From positions 1 through 52,082 of the IMG/VR virus record IMGVR_UViG_3300003323_000338: a stretch of DNA of 52,082 nt; one strand, written 5' to 3'. Under the pieces are notes generated by a model. The model ran no database searches. It saw nothing but the letters and a program-made list of their open reading frames with translations, and had not been told where the DNA came from. The DNA comes from a virus. Of this stretch, positions 236 to 16,956 are shown in pieces (position 1 is the first letter of the stretch; every line of letters begins with the position of its first letter). A program made the translations under genes and the position numbers.

Positions 236-1555
236 ATGTTCTTCGACGCCCGAGCGGCAAAGGCCCTGGCGCCTGGAAAGCACATTGTCATACAGGGTTG
301 CCCGGGGCTGCGCTTGATTGCCTCACAGACACGTAAGACCTGGACCTATCGGTATCGCAGCCCGCACGACGGGTCGCTGAAGCAGATCAAGATCGGTTAC
401 TGGCCTGACCTTCAACCGGTCGACGCGGGAAGCCGGTGGAGCGAGTTGCGGCGCCAGCGGGACTCCGGCATCGACCCGGTACTGGCGAAGAAGGAAGGGC
501 GTGCGACGTCGCTGGCAAAGCCGGCGAAGGCGGCGGCCGAGGTCTACACGCTGGCGCACCTGGTCGAGGACTATGCAGCCGGATACCTTGCGGTGCACCG
601 CGAGGCGCGCGGCGCTCACCTGATTGCGCAGCGTCTGCGCAAGGCCATGACAAGCCACGGCAAGACACCGGTCACTGGCGTGACCCGGGCCTACGTCTTC
701 CAGTTCATCGAAGAGCGCATCAGCACCCCTGTCCTGGCGAAGTCGCTCAAGACCGAGATGGCGGCGGCGTGGCGTTACGGGATGGAGGCGGGCAGAGTGC
801 CGGAGGAAATGCCGAACTGGTGGGCGGAGAAGACCTCTCACAAGCTGCGCAGCAAGGGCGCGATGCGCGAAGGCAAGCGCAAGGGCACCGGCAAGCGAGT
901 GCTGAGCCAGGCTGAAGTGGCGACGCTGCTCAGCCAGGATCTGGCCCTGTTCAGCAGCCAGGTCGGCCAGTTCCTTGAGCTCCAGCTACTGACCTGCACG
1001 CGCGGCGGCGAGATCTGCCAGATGCAGCGCCGGCAGATCACCGAGGAGTCGGATGGGTGGTGGTGGACGATCCCGAAAGAGGCGATGAAGGGACGCCACG
1101 TCGAGGAGGCCTTCGACCTACGCGTGCCGCTCATCGGCCGCGCGCGCGAGATCGTCGCCGGCTTGCTGTCCTCCGTGGACGCCAGCATCCCCTGGCTGTT
1201 CTGGAGCCGCTCGCGGGCCGGCGTGATCGGCCCGCAGACGCAGGCCTACATGCAGAGCAAGGTGCACTACTCCCAGCCCTATAGCCGCAGCAGGCCGGAT
1301 CATGTCCGGCGGCGGCTGCAGGTCACACACTGGTCGCCGCATGACCTGCGGCGCACCGGACGCACGATGCTCGCCGCCATGGGATGCCCACACGATGTCG
1401 GCGAGGCGATCCTCGGCCATGTGGTGCCGGGCGTGGCCGGCGACTACCAGCTGTACCAGTTCGACGCCGAGCGGCGACTCTGGCTTGGGCGATGGGCTAC
1501 CCGACTCGCCGAGCTGGCGCCGGATCGTTCGCAGCGGCCGGCCGGCGCGGCTTAG
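236..1555 (+). CDS. int: Tyrosine-recombinase integrase (DUF4102/P4-type)
   Basis: Site-specific recombinase that inserts and excises the prophage between attP and attB. The 439 residues have the three-part P4-type layout: an N-terminal DUF4102 arm-binding domain (about 1-90), a core-binding SAM-like region (about 105-200) and a C-terminal catalytic domain. Visible catalytic residues are R256 (CTRGGE), H369 and R372 (HDLRR), H395 (LGH) and the nucleophile, probably Y404 (GDYQLY). The ATG at 236 directly follows an arm-type repeat. Its 3' end overlaps the convergent excisionase-like gene by 59 bases. The position next to attL and full family length indicate a working integrase. Confidence 0.95.
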   Translation: MFFDARAAKALAPGKHIVIQGCPGLRLIASQTRKTWTYRYRSPHDGSLKQIKIGYWPDLQPVDAGSRWSELRRQRDSGIDPVLAKKEGRATSLAKPAKAAAEVYTLAHLVEDYAAGYLAVHREARGAHLIAQRLRKAMTSHGKTPVTGVTRAYVFQFIEERISTPVLAKSLKTEMAAAWRYGMEAGRVPEEMPNWWAEKTSHKLRSKGAMREGKRKGTGKRVLSQAEVATLLSQDLALFSSQVGQFLELQLLTCTRGGEICQMQRRQITEESDGWWWTIPKEAMKGRHVEEAFDLRVPLIGRAREIVAGLLSSVDASIPWLFWSRSRAGVIGPQTQAYMQSKVHYSQPYSRSRPDHVRRRLQVTHWSPHDLRRTGRTMLAAMGCPHDVGEAILGHVVPGVAGDYQLYQFDAERRLWLGRWATRLAELAPDRSQRPAGAA

Positions 1556-7049: not shown

Positions 7050-7414
7050 CAGACGTTCCTCCACTTCGTCCCGGCCATCGGAATGTTGCCGTTGCGCCAC
7101 CCGTTCACCTGCAGCGATTCCAGGTTGACGCGGGGGATCGTCATCTGTCGGCGCACGCCATCGACGAACCGGGCGACGGCCTCCGGGCTCAGCTTCCACA
7201 GGTAGTAGTCGTCCGCGCTGTAGAGCGTCGTCCACCAGCCGGTGTTCCGGTGGTCGTTGCTGAATCCGGCGGCGCGCTCGTCCGTGTGCTCGAATCCGAC
7301 GTACTGGTAGCCGAGAGGCCAGCCGCCTGTCGCGTCGATCGCCAGGAAGAAGGTGTGATCCTTCATGCCGGGGTGGGTGTGCGCGAGACCTTCTCGCATC
7401 AGGCGGGCGCTCAT
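7049..7414 (-). CDS. Hypothetical early protein (121 aa)
   Basis: Aromatic-rich alpha/beta protein: FFLAIDATGGWPLGYQYVGF, GWWTTLYSADDYYLWKLS, then RFVDGVRRQMTIPRV. The start overlaps the stop of the exonuclease gene (ATGA at 7411-7414), so it is translationally coupled to the recombination genes. I do not recognise the family and see no catalytic motif. Confidence 0.55.
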   Translation of the reverse strand: MSARLMREGLAHTHPGMKDHTFFLAIDATGGWPLGYQYVGFEHTDERAAGFSNDHRNTGWWTTLYSADDYYLWKLSPEAVARFVDGVRRQMTIPRVNLESLQVNGWRNGNIPMAGTKWRNV

Positions 7415-9315
7415 GCCGCCTTCTCCAGGCTCTTCACCGCAGCGACCTTCAGGGCGTGGTCAGCGATGGCGGAGCAGATGGCGCCGAACTGGGACTCGCG
7501 GAACAGTCGCGCGGCCTTGACCTGCGTAGCGGTGAAGCCCAGCGTCGCCAGGAAGTCGGCGGTGACGGTGAAGCCCAGGCGGGCGTTGATGGTGCCCAGC
7601 GTGAGGGTCGGCTGTTCATCGGCCGGCGCGGGGGCGGGTTCGGGGCGGCGGACCTGGGACACCGGGGCCGCCACGGGAACGATCGGCGCCGGCGCGGGCG
7701 CCGCCGCGCGCGCGGCCAGTTCCTCGTCGCGCGCCTTCTGCTCGCGGTCCCGGGCGGCGGCGAGGTCCGCGGTCAGCTTGTCGATGACCTGGGCGTGGAG
7801 GACTTTCGCTTCCTCGAGTCGTGCGCCGAAGGTGTCCTCGCTGGGCACGTTGGAGCGCGTCATCATCAGGACGTTGTCGATCTCCAACGCGGTGCGGTCG
7901 CCGTAGTGCAGGCGGGCGTCGAGCTCTTCGAAGCGGCCCACGATGCGCGCGCGCTTGGCGGACTCCTCCGCTTCGCGCTTGATGCGCTCTTGCTCGGCCT
8001 GGCGCTGCTGGCGGGCCTCGTCTTCCGCCTTCTGGTCGGCGATGCGCAACTTCACGAGCGCGGTCAGGTCCTCGGGCTGCTTGAGGACGATCGTCGCGGT
8101 GTCGTGGAAGAGGCTCTTGTAGTCGGCGGCCAACTCGCGCAGCGTGCCCAGGTTGATCTGGATCCGGTCCGCGATGGCGTTGGCCTCGATCTTGGCGTTG
8201 GCCAGGACCAGGTTCACCGCCTCTTGCATGTTGTCGAAGCTCTTCTTGCCCTTGATCGCGCCCGCGAAGTCGGCCGGGATGGCGGGCATCAGGTCGCGGC
8301 CCAGGCGGGTGTTCAAGGCGGCGATGTGCTCGCGCAGCGCCTTGGTCGGCACGCTGACCAGTTCCACCTTCCGGCGATCCTTCTCGGCCTTCACCAGCTT
8401 GTCCAGGTCCAGGCGAACGCGGCGCGCCTCGGCGCTGATGTCGTCGATCGTGCGGAACAGAGCGTCGATGCTCTCCGTCTGGCTCAGCGCGTGCTGCTTG
8501 GCGGCGGCGAGCCGCTCCTCGACGTCGCCGCACCACTTCACGGTCTTCTCCGCGTTGGCGAAGTCATCGTCCGTGGTGAGCTCGCGCTTGATGCCCTTGA
8601 AGACGGCGAGGGCAGTCTCCTTGAACGAGTCGAGGTTGCTCGCGGTGACGGCGCCCGTGACCTGGATGCGCAGCGCCGGCAGCGTCTCCGGCGCGCGCCC
8701 CGTGGGCTTCGGCGCCTCGGCCACCGGGGGCACGTAGTCGCACAGGTCCTGCTCCAGCTGCGCCCAGCCGGCGGTGATGCGCGCGGCCAGTTCCGGGTTC
8801 GGCGTGTACCAGCAGTGGCGCTCCTCGGCGAGTTCGTCGCCGTTCCACTTCGACGCCATGAACAGCACGCGCTCGCAGCCCGAGACCATGCACTGCTGCT
8901 CCATCTGGATCTGGTAGTGCAGCGGCAGGTCGGCGCCGGTACAGCCTTCCACCATGACGGCGCGCAGGTCCTTGTTCAGGCTTTTGTGCTCGAAGGCGAC
9001 GTCATCCAGCATCGTCAGGCCGTCGAAGGACACGGACAGCTTGCCCGCGGTGCCGGTGACCGGATAGAGGTCCTCACCGATGATCTGCTCGGCCAGCGGG
9101 CGCGCGAGCGCTTCCGCGCGATGGCCCTCGTCGAAGATGCGCTGCGTCTCCGGGCTGACGTCGGCGGACAGGCCGGTATGCAGCTCCAGCAGCAGCGCGT
9201 CGCGGCTCTTGTACGGCGACTCGCCCAGCATGGCCGGCGCATCGCTCGCGTTGAAGTGGTTGAGGCGGTGGGCATGCCATTCCGGCGAGCCCTGGATCAG
9301 GTCGTGCTTTTGCAT
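7411..9315 (-). CDS. YqaJ-family recombination exonuclease with long C-terminal extension
   Basis: Lambda-exonuclease-fold nuclease that would resect double-stranded DNA ends and pass 3' strands to the ERF annealing protein encoded just upstream. The N-terminal 190 residues form the YqaJ domain. Visible are the entry motif GSPEWHAHRLNHFNASDAP (9-27), E68 (GHRAEALARP) and the metal and catalytic residues D98 (SFDG), E109 and K111 (FEHKS), then YQIQMEQQCMVSG. Residues about 220-550 are a long charged coiled-coil region. Residues 550-600 are a Pro/Ala linker followed by a short C-terminal domain. At 634 residues it is about twice the length of the nuclease alone. Confidence 0.85.
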   Translation of the reverse strand: MQKHDLIQGSPEWHAHRLNHFNASDAPAMLGESPYKSRDALLLELHTGLSADVSPETQRIFDEGHRAEALARPLAEQIIGEDLYPVTGTAGKLSVSFDGLTMLDDVAFEHKSLNKDLRAVMVEGCTGADLPLHYQIQMEQQCMVSGCERVLFMASKWNGDELAEERHCWYTPNPELAARITAGWAQLEQDLCDYVPPVAEAPKPTGRAPETLPALRIQVTGAVTASNLDSFKETALAVFKGIKRELTTDDDFANAEKTVKWCGDVEERLAAAKQHALSQTESIDALFRTIDDISAEARRVRLDLDKLVKAEKDRRKVELVSVPTKALREHIAALNTRLGRDLMPAIPADFAGAIKGKKSFDNMQEAVNLVLANAKIEANAIADRIQINLGTLRELAADYKSLFHDTATIVLKQPEDLTALVKLRIADQKAEDEARQQRQAEQERIKREAEESAKRARIVGRFEELDARLHYGDRTALEIDNVLMMTRSNVPSEDTFGARLEEAKVLHAQVIDKLTADLAAARDREQKARDEELAARAAAPAPAPIVPVAAPVSQVRRPEPAPAPADEQPTLTLGTINARLGFTVTADFLATLGFTATQVKAARLFRESQFGAICSAIADHALKVAAVKSLEKAA

Positions 9316-9325
9316 GGTGTGGTCC

Positions 9326-10174
9326 TCACTGCGCGCGCTTGATGGCGCGGATCTGCTTCTCTTGCTCGGCGTCGAAGGGCTTCTTGGCCTTCACCGTCTT
9401 GACGATGTCGTCGGCCGTCTTCTTGCCGGACTGGATGTACTTCTCCCAGGCGGGGAAGTTGCGTTCGAAGTCGGCGGCGGGGTAGGTCTCCGCCGTCGCC
9501 GCGGCGCGCGCCTCGGTGCGCGGGGCTTCGCCTTCGGACTCGTCGCCTCGCCCGTCGTTGTCGTCGCCGCCTTCGGCCACGCCGCAGATGGCCTTGAGCG
9601 TGTAGCGCTGGAGGTAGGAGACGGTCGACGCGATCTGCTGGATCGAGTTCTTCTTGCCCGAGTCGTCCGGCGGCCCGCCCATCTCGACGCTCTCGGAGTG
9701 GCCGGCCTTGTGCTTCAGGATGCACGTCACCGAGATCCACGTTGGTGTCTGCTTCACATCCCAGCGGTACGACATGCCGTGCTTCGCCAGCGCGGGGCCC
9801 ACGGCCGCCACCACATCGAAGAGCTCCGCGTGCTTGTAGCCGACGAAGGCGCCATCGCGGCCGGTGTAGCCGACCTGCTTGCTCTTCAGGATCGTGATCG
9901 CCTCGGCCTTGAAGCCGGCCATCGCCTCGTTCATCGCCTGATCGGCGAGTTTGGCGTCCTGACGATCGGCGAGATCCATGATCGTTCCGATCTGCTCCGG
10001 CGTGGCGCCGCGATCGAGCAGCGCCAGCAGGAACGACTCGCTCTTCGAGAACACCGGCTGGTTCGCGGCGGCGGTCGCGACTGCGGACGGCTGTTGCGCG
10101 GCCGCGAGGGGCTGGGACGGTCGATCGCTCAGGTCCAGGAGCTCGAGCATCTCCTGCTGGGTTGCTGCTTGCAT
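9326..10174 (-). CDS. erf: ERF-family single-strand annealing protein
   Basis: Phage recombinase that anneals complementary single strands, partner of the neighbouring YqaJ exonuclease. Start taken at MQAATQQEML (10174); the longer frame has an Arg/Ser-rich shadow. The ERF core spans about 75-205, including GYTGRDGAFVGYKHAELFDV, HGMSYRW and the hallmark ASTVSYLQRYTLKAICGV followed by an acidic DDNDGRGDE stretch. The first 45 residues are a Gln/Ala linker. The C-terminal 70 residues probably interact with the exonuclease or host SSB (inference). Confidence 0.85.
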   Translation of the reverse strand: MQAATQQEMLELLDLSDRPSQPLAAAQQPSAVATAAANQPVFSKSESFLLALLDRGATPEQIGTIMDLADRQDAKLADQAMNEAMAGFKAEAITILKSKQVGYTGRDGAFVGYKHAELFDVVAAVGPALAKHGMSYRWDVKQTPTWISVTCILKHKAGHSESVEMGGPPDDSGKKNSIQQIASTVSYLQRYTLKAICGVAEGGDDNDGRGDESEGEAPRTEARAAATAETYPAADFERNFPAWEKYIQSGKKTADDIVKTVKAKKPFDAEQEKQIRAIKRAQ

Positions 10175-10187
10175 GGCGGCGCTCCGA

Positions 10188-15777: not shown

Positions 15778-16956
15778 ATGCTGAAGTCCCTGATCATCTA
15801 CCGCCTGTCGAAGGACTGGACGCCCAACGCCGATCTCTTCGAGGAATCGCTCGAGCGTGAGGCCTTCACGCCGTGCGGCGCGACGCAGGCGCTGTCGGTC
15901 GGCTGGGTGCCGCCGCGCGGTGACGCGGAGTCGCCGCTCCTGGAGATCATCGACGGCCAATGGCTGCTGACCCTCCGAGCCGAGAAGCGCATCCTGCCCG
16001 CCAGCGTGATCCGCGAGGCTCTGGAGGAGCGCCTCGACCATATCGAGCAGGAGACGGGCCGCCGGCCGGGTAAGAAGGCGCAGACCGACCTGAAGGAGCA
16101 GGTGACGCTGGAGCTGCTGCCGCGCGCCTTCACAACCTCCTCGCATACCCGCGTCTGGATCGACCCGACGCTGGGCCTGTTGATGGTGGATGCGGGCTCG
16201 GTGAGCAAGGCCGACGAGGTCGTGACGATGCTGGTCAAGGCGGACCCGTCGATCAACCTCCACCTGCTGCAGAGCGCCGAGTCGCCGGCCGCGTGCATGG
16301 GCGCCTGGTTGATGGACGGGATCCCGCCCGAGGGCTTCACGATCGACCGCGACCTCGAACTGAAAGCCGCCGACGAGATGAAGTCCGCGGTGCGCTTCAC
16401 CCGCCACAACCTGGACCGCGCCGACGTCCGCGACCACCTCACCGGCGGCAAGATGCCCACGCGGCTGGCGATGACCTGGAAGGAGCGCATCAGCTTCGTC
16501 CTCACGGACTCGATGCAGATCAAGGGCGTGAAGTTCCTGGACGTGGTGTTCGACGGCCGCGACAAGCCGGCCAAGGACGAGGCCTTCGACGTCGACGCGG
16601 CGCTGGCCACGGGCGAGCTGTCGCGCCTGATCCCCGCGCTGATCGAGGCGCTGGGCGGCGAGCTCGACTTCATCGGGCAGAACGCCAAGATCGCCGAGCA
16701 GGACGCGCTTCCAGAAGCGGTGCCGCCGCATGTGTCCGGCGACGGACCCGACCCCATCTACGCCCGAGCCGTCGAGATCGTGCGGGCGCAGAAGCGGGCC
16801 TCGTTGTCTCTGCTGCAGCGGATGCTCACGCTGGGCTACAACCGCGCGTCGCGCCTGCTGGACCGCATGGTCGCCGAGGGCGTGCTTGAGCCCCCCGGTC
16901 CTGATGGTCGATACGTGCTCGCCGCGGCCGTCGAACTCGTGGAGCCGACGCCATGA
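15778..16956 (+). CDS. RdgC-like protein fused to an FtsK-gamma DNA-binding domain
   Basis: 392 residues. The first about 300 match RdgC, a ring-shaped duplex-DNA binder that restrains RecA: it starts MLKSLIIYRL, has VGWVPPR (42-48), LPRAFTTSSHTRVWIDP (114-130), an RHNLDRADVRDHL region and GGKMPTRLAMTW (223-234). After a short acidic/Pro linker, residues about 325-382 read as the winged-helix gamma domain of FtsK: DPIYARAVEIVRAQKRASLS, LQRMLTLGYNRASRLLDRM, AEGVLEPPG. In FtsK that domain recognises the polar KOPS octamers and contacts XerD. I do not recall this pairing from other proteins. Full-length RdgC plus a complete gamma domain makes a sequencing artefact unlikely. Confidence 0.8.
   Translation: MLKSLIIYRLSKDWTPNADLFEESLEREAFTPCGATQALSVGWVPPRGDAESPLLEIIDGQWLLTLRAEKRILPASVIREALEERLDHIEQETGRRPGKKAQTDLKEQVTLELLPRAFTTSSHTRVWIDPTLGLLMVDAGSVSKADEVVTMLVKADPSINLHLLQSAESPAACMGAWLMDGIPPEGFTIDRDLELKAADEMKSAVRFTRHNLDRADVRDHLTGGKMPTRLAMTWKERISFVLTDSMQIKGVKFLDVVFDGRDKPAKDEAFDVDAALATGELSRLIPALIEALGGELDFIGQNAKIAEQDALPEAVPPHVSGDGPDPIYARAVEIVRAQKRASLSLLQRMLTLGYNRASRLLDRMVAEGVLEPPGPDGRYVLAAAVELVEPTP

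Follow-up and report, generated by a model that had tools for sequence, protein, structure and literature searches.

A phage protein joining RdgC to the FtsK-gamma winged helix, an architecture that recurs widely in phages

We describe a phage gene that encodes RdgC and FtsK-gamma in a single product. RdgC is a ring-shaped protein that covers DNA and keeps the host RecA recombinase in check, and FtsK-gamma is the small domain with which the cell-division motor FtsK reads DNA. The fusion is confirmed as real and correctly placed in the window, which is an entire virus record of 52,082 bp with the gene content of a temperate tailed phage. It is not a one-off; RdgC-gamma is widespread in phages. 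Two separate pathways, RecA restraint and FtsK-guided chromosome processing, are thereby joined in one small phage protein. Our preferred interpretation, held tentatively and with slightly less than even confidence, is that the protein is a DNA-coating RdgC to which gamma adds a further DNA anchor, one that possibly reads sequence; this would help a phage that performs annealing recombination with its own proteins. The two domain families are known and a fusion of gamma to a terminase has been published (PMC8190038). The preliminary description of this DNA had pointed to no described protein of the RdgC-gamma architecture, and we likewise found no account of it in the literature searched, most subscription papers being outside the reach of that search.

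The same description had placed RdgC first and FtsK-gamma second within one gene, and Pfam bears out this order. The RdgC profile PF04381 scored 346.7 bits against a cut-off of 25 (E 1.5e-103), with positions 3-298 of its 298 covered, and the match to FtsK_gamma (PF09397) predicted for the C-terminal residues is present at residues 325-373, with 59.4 bits against a cut-off of 30.6 (E 2.9e-16). These were the sole Pfam matches, an ATPase motor domain being absent from the protein. PHROGs assigned the RdgC part to phrog_724 and the C-terminal part to several gamma-bearing phage families, and a PDB sequence search returned the RdgC structures 2owl and 2owy together with the FtsK gamma structures 2ve8, 2j5o and 2j5p, both in agreement with Pfam. 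The coordinates and domain borders first proposed are correct. The GC content at the three codon positions (0.69/0.44/0.93) is a strong coding signature. It could be argued that a sequencing or assembly error has joined separate genes, and at two other loci (L045 and L181) gamma does lie in a separate frame directly 3' of rdgC. Nothing in the window points to such a frameshift, the open reading frame being uninterrupted, and this explanation is refuted, with hardly any residual doubt, because the same domain order recurs in many independent genomes, including the records of isolate phages.

Table 1. Location of the fusion gene, its domains and selected neighbouring genes in the window
Feature	Coordinates	Strand	Remarks
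Tyrosine integrase	236-1555		
RecE-like recombination exonuclease	7411..9315	-	phrog_7655, E 7e-197
Erf-like single-strand annealing protein	9326..10180	-	phrog_155, E 8e-32
Small gene, 102 aa	15467..15775	+	2 bp upstream of rdgC-gamma
RdgC-FtsK_gamma fusion gene, 392 aa	15778..16956	+	ATG start, TGA stop, single open frame
RdgC domain, residues 2-295	15781..16662	+	Pfam PF04381; VIA-align to 2owy
Linker, residues 296-324	16663..16749	+	AlphaFold2 model: helix 298-309, then flexible stretch
FtsK_gamma winged helix with RASLSLLQRMLTLGYNRASRLLDRM, residues 325-382	16750..16923	+	Pfam PF09397; match to 2ve9
Small gene, 92 aa	16953..17231	+	Downstream; ATG overlaps rdgC-gamma stop (ATGA)

An AlphaFold2 model of the monomer, built from 50 sequences, contains two well-defined domains with a mean pLDDT of 92.7. 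Low values are confined to residues 316-319 and the C-terminus (53 for the block 311-320). The RdgC part aligned with 2owy over 301 residues (VIA-align, Z 32.8, rmsd 2.0), and the gamma part matched the KOPS-bound P. aeruginosa domain 2ve9 over 62 residues (Z 10.6, rmsd 1.7). As a phage RdgC, the protein would be expected to encircle duplex DNA as a ring of two subunits and to hold back RecA, while the gamma winged helix on its flexible linker could act as an extra DNA anchor. The two gammas of an RdgC dimer might then bias the landing place or the residence time of the ring. The stoichiometry counts against this proposal, since crystals contain three gamma domains per KOPS (PMC5052618) and an RdgC dimer would offer two.

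Besides rdgC-gamma, the plus strand encodes two DNA methyltransferases, a replication initiator, a DnaB-like helicase, terminase, portal and tail. Homologues of the 102-residue product encoded upstream, with 50-61% identity (tblastn), lie directly 5' of rdgC in four sister prophages (L004, L012, L014 and L017). The host is probably a burkholderialean of the Roseateles, Mitsuaria, Rubrivivax or Pelomonas kind, because the closest relatives of the RdgC domain, with 64-78% identity, are found in genomes of these genera.

The preliminary description had proposed a search for the same architecture in other phages, and RdgC-gamma proved to recur widely, both in IMG/VR and in isolate phage records. 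With tblastn, 449 of 50,697 phage records matched the fusion protein and 149 covered at least 80% of the query, a coverage at which the match extends past the RdgC domain. An IMG/VR scan with gamma only gave 231 loci, with RdgC-gamma in at least 50 of the best 80, and a scan with RdgC only found gamma on 19 of the best 80. Pfam confirmed the annotated examples, which are from Achromobacter phage CF418P1 (there named 'DNA translocase'), from Vibrio phage K478b and from Pseudomonas phage PA8. The fusion is common enough among phages infecting well-studied bacteria (Pseudomonas PA8, Achromobacter CF418P1 and Vibrio phages) to be readily testable. In a sample of 200 genomes of the host order, nearly all of the host RdgC matches among those listed lacked gamma and ended at about residue 295-326 of the query. 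The exceptions were a sister prophage whose tail has diverged and a single genome containing prophage-like fragments; gamma elsewhere in these genomes was mostly in FtsK-sized frames.

Comparison of related loci indicates that RdgCs gain and lose the gamma tail as a cassette and that the DNA junction is clean. Trees of the RdgC domain require at least 18 switches of the gamma state for one set of 121 sequences and at least 17 for another set of 109. In one pair the RdgC domains of L163, with gamma, and L175, without, are 97% identical; the DNA is 98% identical to about 17 bp past the RdgC domain, where the tail is replaced, and downstream the two become similar again. Such repeated gain and loss provides natural matched pairs for experiments. 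The gamma-less proteins end bluntly, in short acidic tails resembling the tip of SSB, or in other small domains. Tails like the SSB C-terminal tip (...TGPKAAPTDTSPGESPF, ...DAAPF, ...EAAPWD) occur on many gamma-less phage RdgCs and some host RdgCs (L164, L184, L192, L202, L205, L131 and L015-L030), and might bind interaction partners of SSB. Two sister tails (L003:6955-7140 and L012:8976-9164) share the length, place and helix pattern of gamma without its GYNRA motif and are perhaps decayed gammas, the hhalign probability being only 22%.

The ease with which the tail is replaced is also what would be expected if gamma were simply a handy winged helix, conferring general DNA affinity or recognizing some altogether different sequence, without any connection to KOPS or Xer. 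The sister tails of the same length and place that lack GYNRA fit this explanation, as does a Burkholderia-type group of phages in which both R1292 and R1300 (E. coli FtsK numbering) are lost. On the other hand, most tails strongly conserve N1296 together with the remainder of the recognition helix, which plain affinity would not need; we consider this alternative rather unlikely.

RdgC is one of several partners of gamma in phages. We found gamma on the nucleoid-associated protein NA37, on a beta-clamp-like protein, on a ParB-like protein, on DUF5906 primase-helicases and on further proteins of 200-355 residues. The clamp-like case (L072:3278-4183) has a weak match to the DNA polymerase III beta clamp, below the Pfam cut-off, and the ParB-like protein (L060:3185-4600), read as such by eye and not by Pfam, carries two gammas in tandem. 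In the primase-helicase-like proteins (L057:797-3751, L071:2828-5959 and L105:2798-5845), which have about 1000 residues, gamma lies near residue 400. Among the loci searched, no case of gamma on two different genes within 10 kb was found. In the group of F116 and PA8, gamma is constant in position but not in partner. It is joined to RdgC in PA8, whereas a related locus (L068:2014-4183) encodes a gamma-less RdgC followed by NA37 bearing gamma, and in Pseudomonas phage F116 the NA37 protein gp13 (L396:8968-10023) retains a remnant of the gamma wing beside a gamma-less RdgC. The C-terminus of F116 NA37 (MNAHGSREAQP) is encoded by DNA that can be aligned with the final codons of gamma in PA8. Our best reading is that gamma serves as a transferable DNA anchor for phage proteins that coat DNA. 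A bolder proposal is that gamma, often borne by proteins that encircle or coat DNA (the RdgC ring, clamp-like, NA37, ParB-like), creates motorless mimics of FtsK at KOPS or XerCD, through which the phage would govern recombination, the resolution of dimers or the division of its infected host; we regard this as speculative and improbable.

In E. coli FtsK, residues N1296, R1300 and E1303 are required for KOPS recognition (PMC2533119), and gamma contacts XerD through Q1288, R1289, R1292, I1293, G1294 and N1296 (PMC5052618). The corresponding residues in the window are Q1288, R1289, T1292, L1293, G1294, N1296, R1300 and D1303. Hence two of the three KOPS-reading residues are kept and the third is changed conservatively, while the set of XerD contacts is incomplete, lacking R1292 and I1293. 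Across 62 distinct RdgC-gamma tails, Q1288, R1289, G1294 and N1296 are invariant, E or D occupies position 1303 in 60, and R or K position 1292 in 50. R1300 is retained by 49 tails and replaced by A, S, Q or N in the other 13, which makes it probable that any target sequence differs between tails. Although QR and GY were selected for in the scan with gamma, conservation is the same in the 19 tails that were found via RdgC, without a gamma pattern.

This pattern is relevant to a further possibility, that the tail contacts host XerD and not DNA. RdgC-gamma would then act in place of FtsK, though without its motor, and would activate XerCD or sequester it, either resolving multimers of phage or host DNA or disturbing dimer resolution in the host. 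The four XerD contacts kept in the window are compatible with this, as is the presence of Q1288, R1289 and N1296 in every tail, including those found via RdgC. Moreover, activation can be achieved by tethering just nine residues of gamma to XerC, and a phage-type activator of XerD, XafT, is known (PMC9765430). However, R1292, the source of most of the other contacts with XerD, is replaced by T in the window, and 12 of the 62 tails have a non-basic residue at this position. Conservation alone cannot separate XerD from KOPS as the partner because both use one surface of gamma, the QR....GYNRA core doubling as the DNA-reading surface. No dif-like site was found in these phages, although the same search also failed on control host genomes, and the phage encodes its own tyrosine integrase, whereas Xer-exploiting elements of the XafT type (IMEX) have no integrase of their own. 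Overall, we think it doubtful that XerD is the partner.

If the anchor reads a sequence, it could target KOPS, or octamers resembling them, in either the host chromosome or the phage DNA. A count by strand, suggested in the preliminary description, gave 11 KOPS octamers (GGGNAGGG) on the plus strand of the window and 0 on the minus strand (two-sided binomial p 0.001). They span 11595-39166, with three of the 11 lying within a region of minus-strand genes, and their total is no more than chance (9.2 expected). The majority strand holds 273 of 315 KOPS across 36 RdgC-gamma records and 51 of 53 across seven gamma-less temperate records. Among virulent phages, PB1 (1:1) and YuA (7:7) have no polarity and ACP17 has counts of 4:13. 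Four RdgC-gamma records have 0 or 1 KOPS, some RdgC-gamma phages having none. The density is higher with gamma than without (1.85 vs 1.26 per 10 kb, p 0.02), but pairing on the RdgC tree left no association between gamma and KOPS density. Within 5 kb of rdgC-gamma we counted 40 KOPS against 24 expected, in 15 hand-compiled and uneven records that include gamma-less F116 as gamma-bearing, and clustering was not stronger close to rdgC-gamma than at 10 kb. At two loci (L037 and L063, in records G009 and G019), the KOPS near rdgC-gamma are opposite in direction to those of the rest of the phage genome.

We considered KOPS polarity as proof of a phage-borne target and rejected it, as gamma-less temperate phages are just as polar and the virulent controls mostly are not. 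KOPS on phage DNA as the target of gamma is unsupported because gamma-less temperate phages share the polarity and several RdgC-gamma phages lack KOPS. The suggestion that the fusion marks phage DNA orientation through KOPS is unsupported on the same grounds, as well as by the missing link to density on the tree. The polarity seen here is best read as an adaptation to life in the host chromosome; KOPS polarity in prophages was already known (cited in PMC5993296).

The KOPS counts, together with the variability of R1300, also count against our preferred interpretation of gamma as an extra DNA anchor for RdgC. In its favour are the domain and fold assignments, the state of the KOPS-recognition residues, the occurrence of gamma on other phage proteins that bind or process DNA, the fixed gamma with changing partner in PA8, L068 and F116, and the RecE-like and Erf-like genes in the same phage. 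The likely benefit would be local suppression of RecA while the RecE-like exonuclease and the Erf-like annealing protein recombine DNA. Targeting of RdgC by gamma, whether to KOPS or to XerD, would give phages a means of controlling where recombination takes place.

Known systems share one or other part of this architecture. The RdgC structures of E. coli (2owl) and P. aeruginosa (2owy) have 33-37% identity to the RdgC of the window and cover its whole fold (Z 32.5-32.8), but these proteins, like the sampled host RdgCs, stop at about 300 residues where the window protein continues into gamma. The RdgCs of Acidovorax phage ACP17 and Pseudomonas phage F116 have the same domain and lie in phage DNA-metabolism operons, but unlike the window protein bear no tail. 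The gamma domains of FtsK/SpoIIIE (2ve8, 2ve9, 2j5o, 2j5p and 5dcf; PF09397) have the winged helix and recognition helix in common with the window, where N1296, R1300 and R1289 are kept; the window differs in having RdgC as partner in place of a motor and in the changes of R1292 to T and E1303 to D. XafT of the TLC satellite phage is also phage-encoded and replaces FtsK in XerD activation (PMC9765430), a parallel drawn from its description, but it serves Xer-driven integration at dif and has no RdgC. Finally, the published fusion of FtsK_gamma to the small terminase in Bacillus phages Sam46 and Sam112 (PMC8190038) is, like the window protein, a phage protein with a captured FtsK_gamma. Its authors likewise suggest loading sites that resemble KOPS/SRS, and in the phage they saw few KOPS; unlike the protein described here, it has a terminase as partner, an N-terminal gamma and a Bacillus host (PMC8190038).
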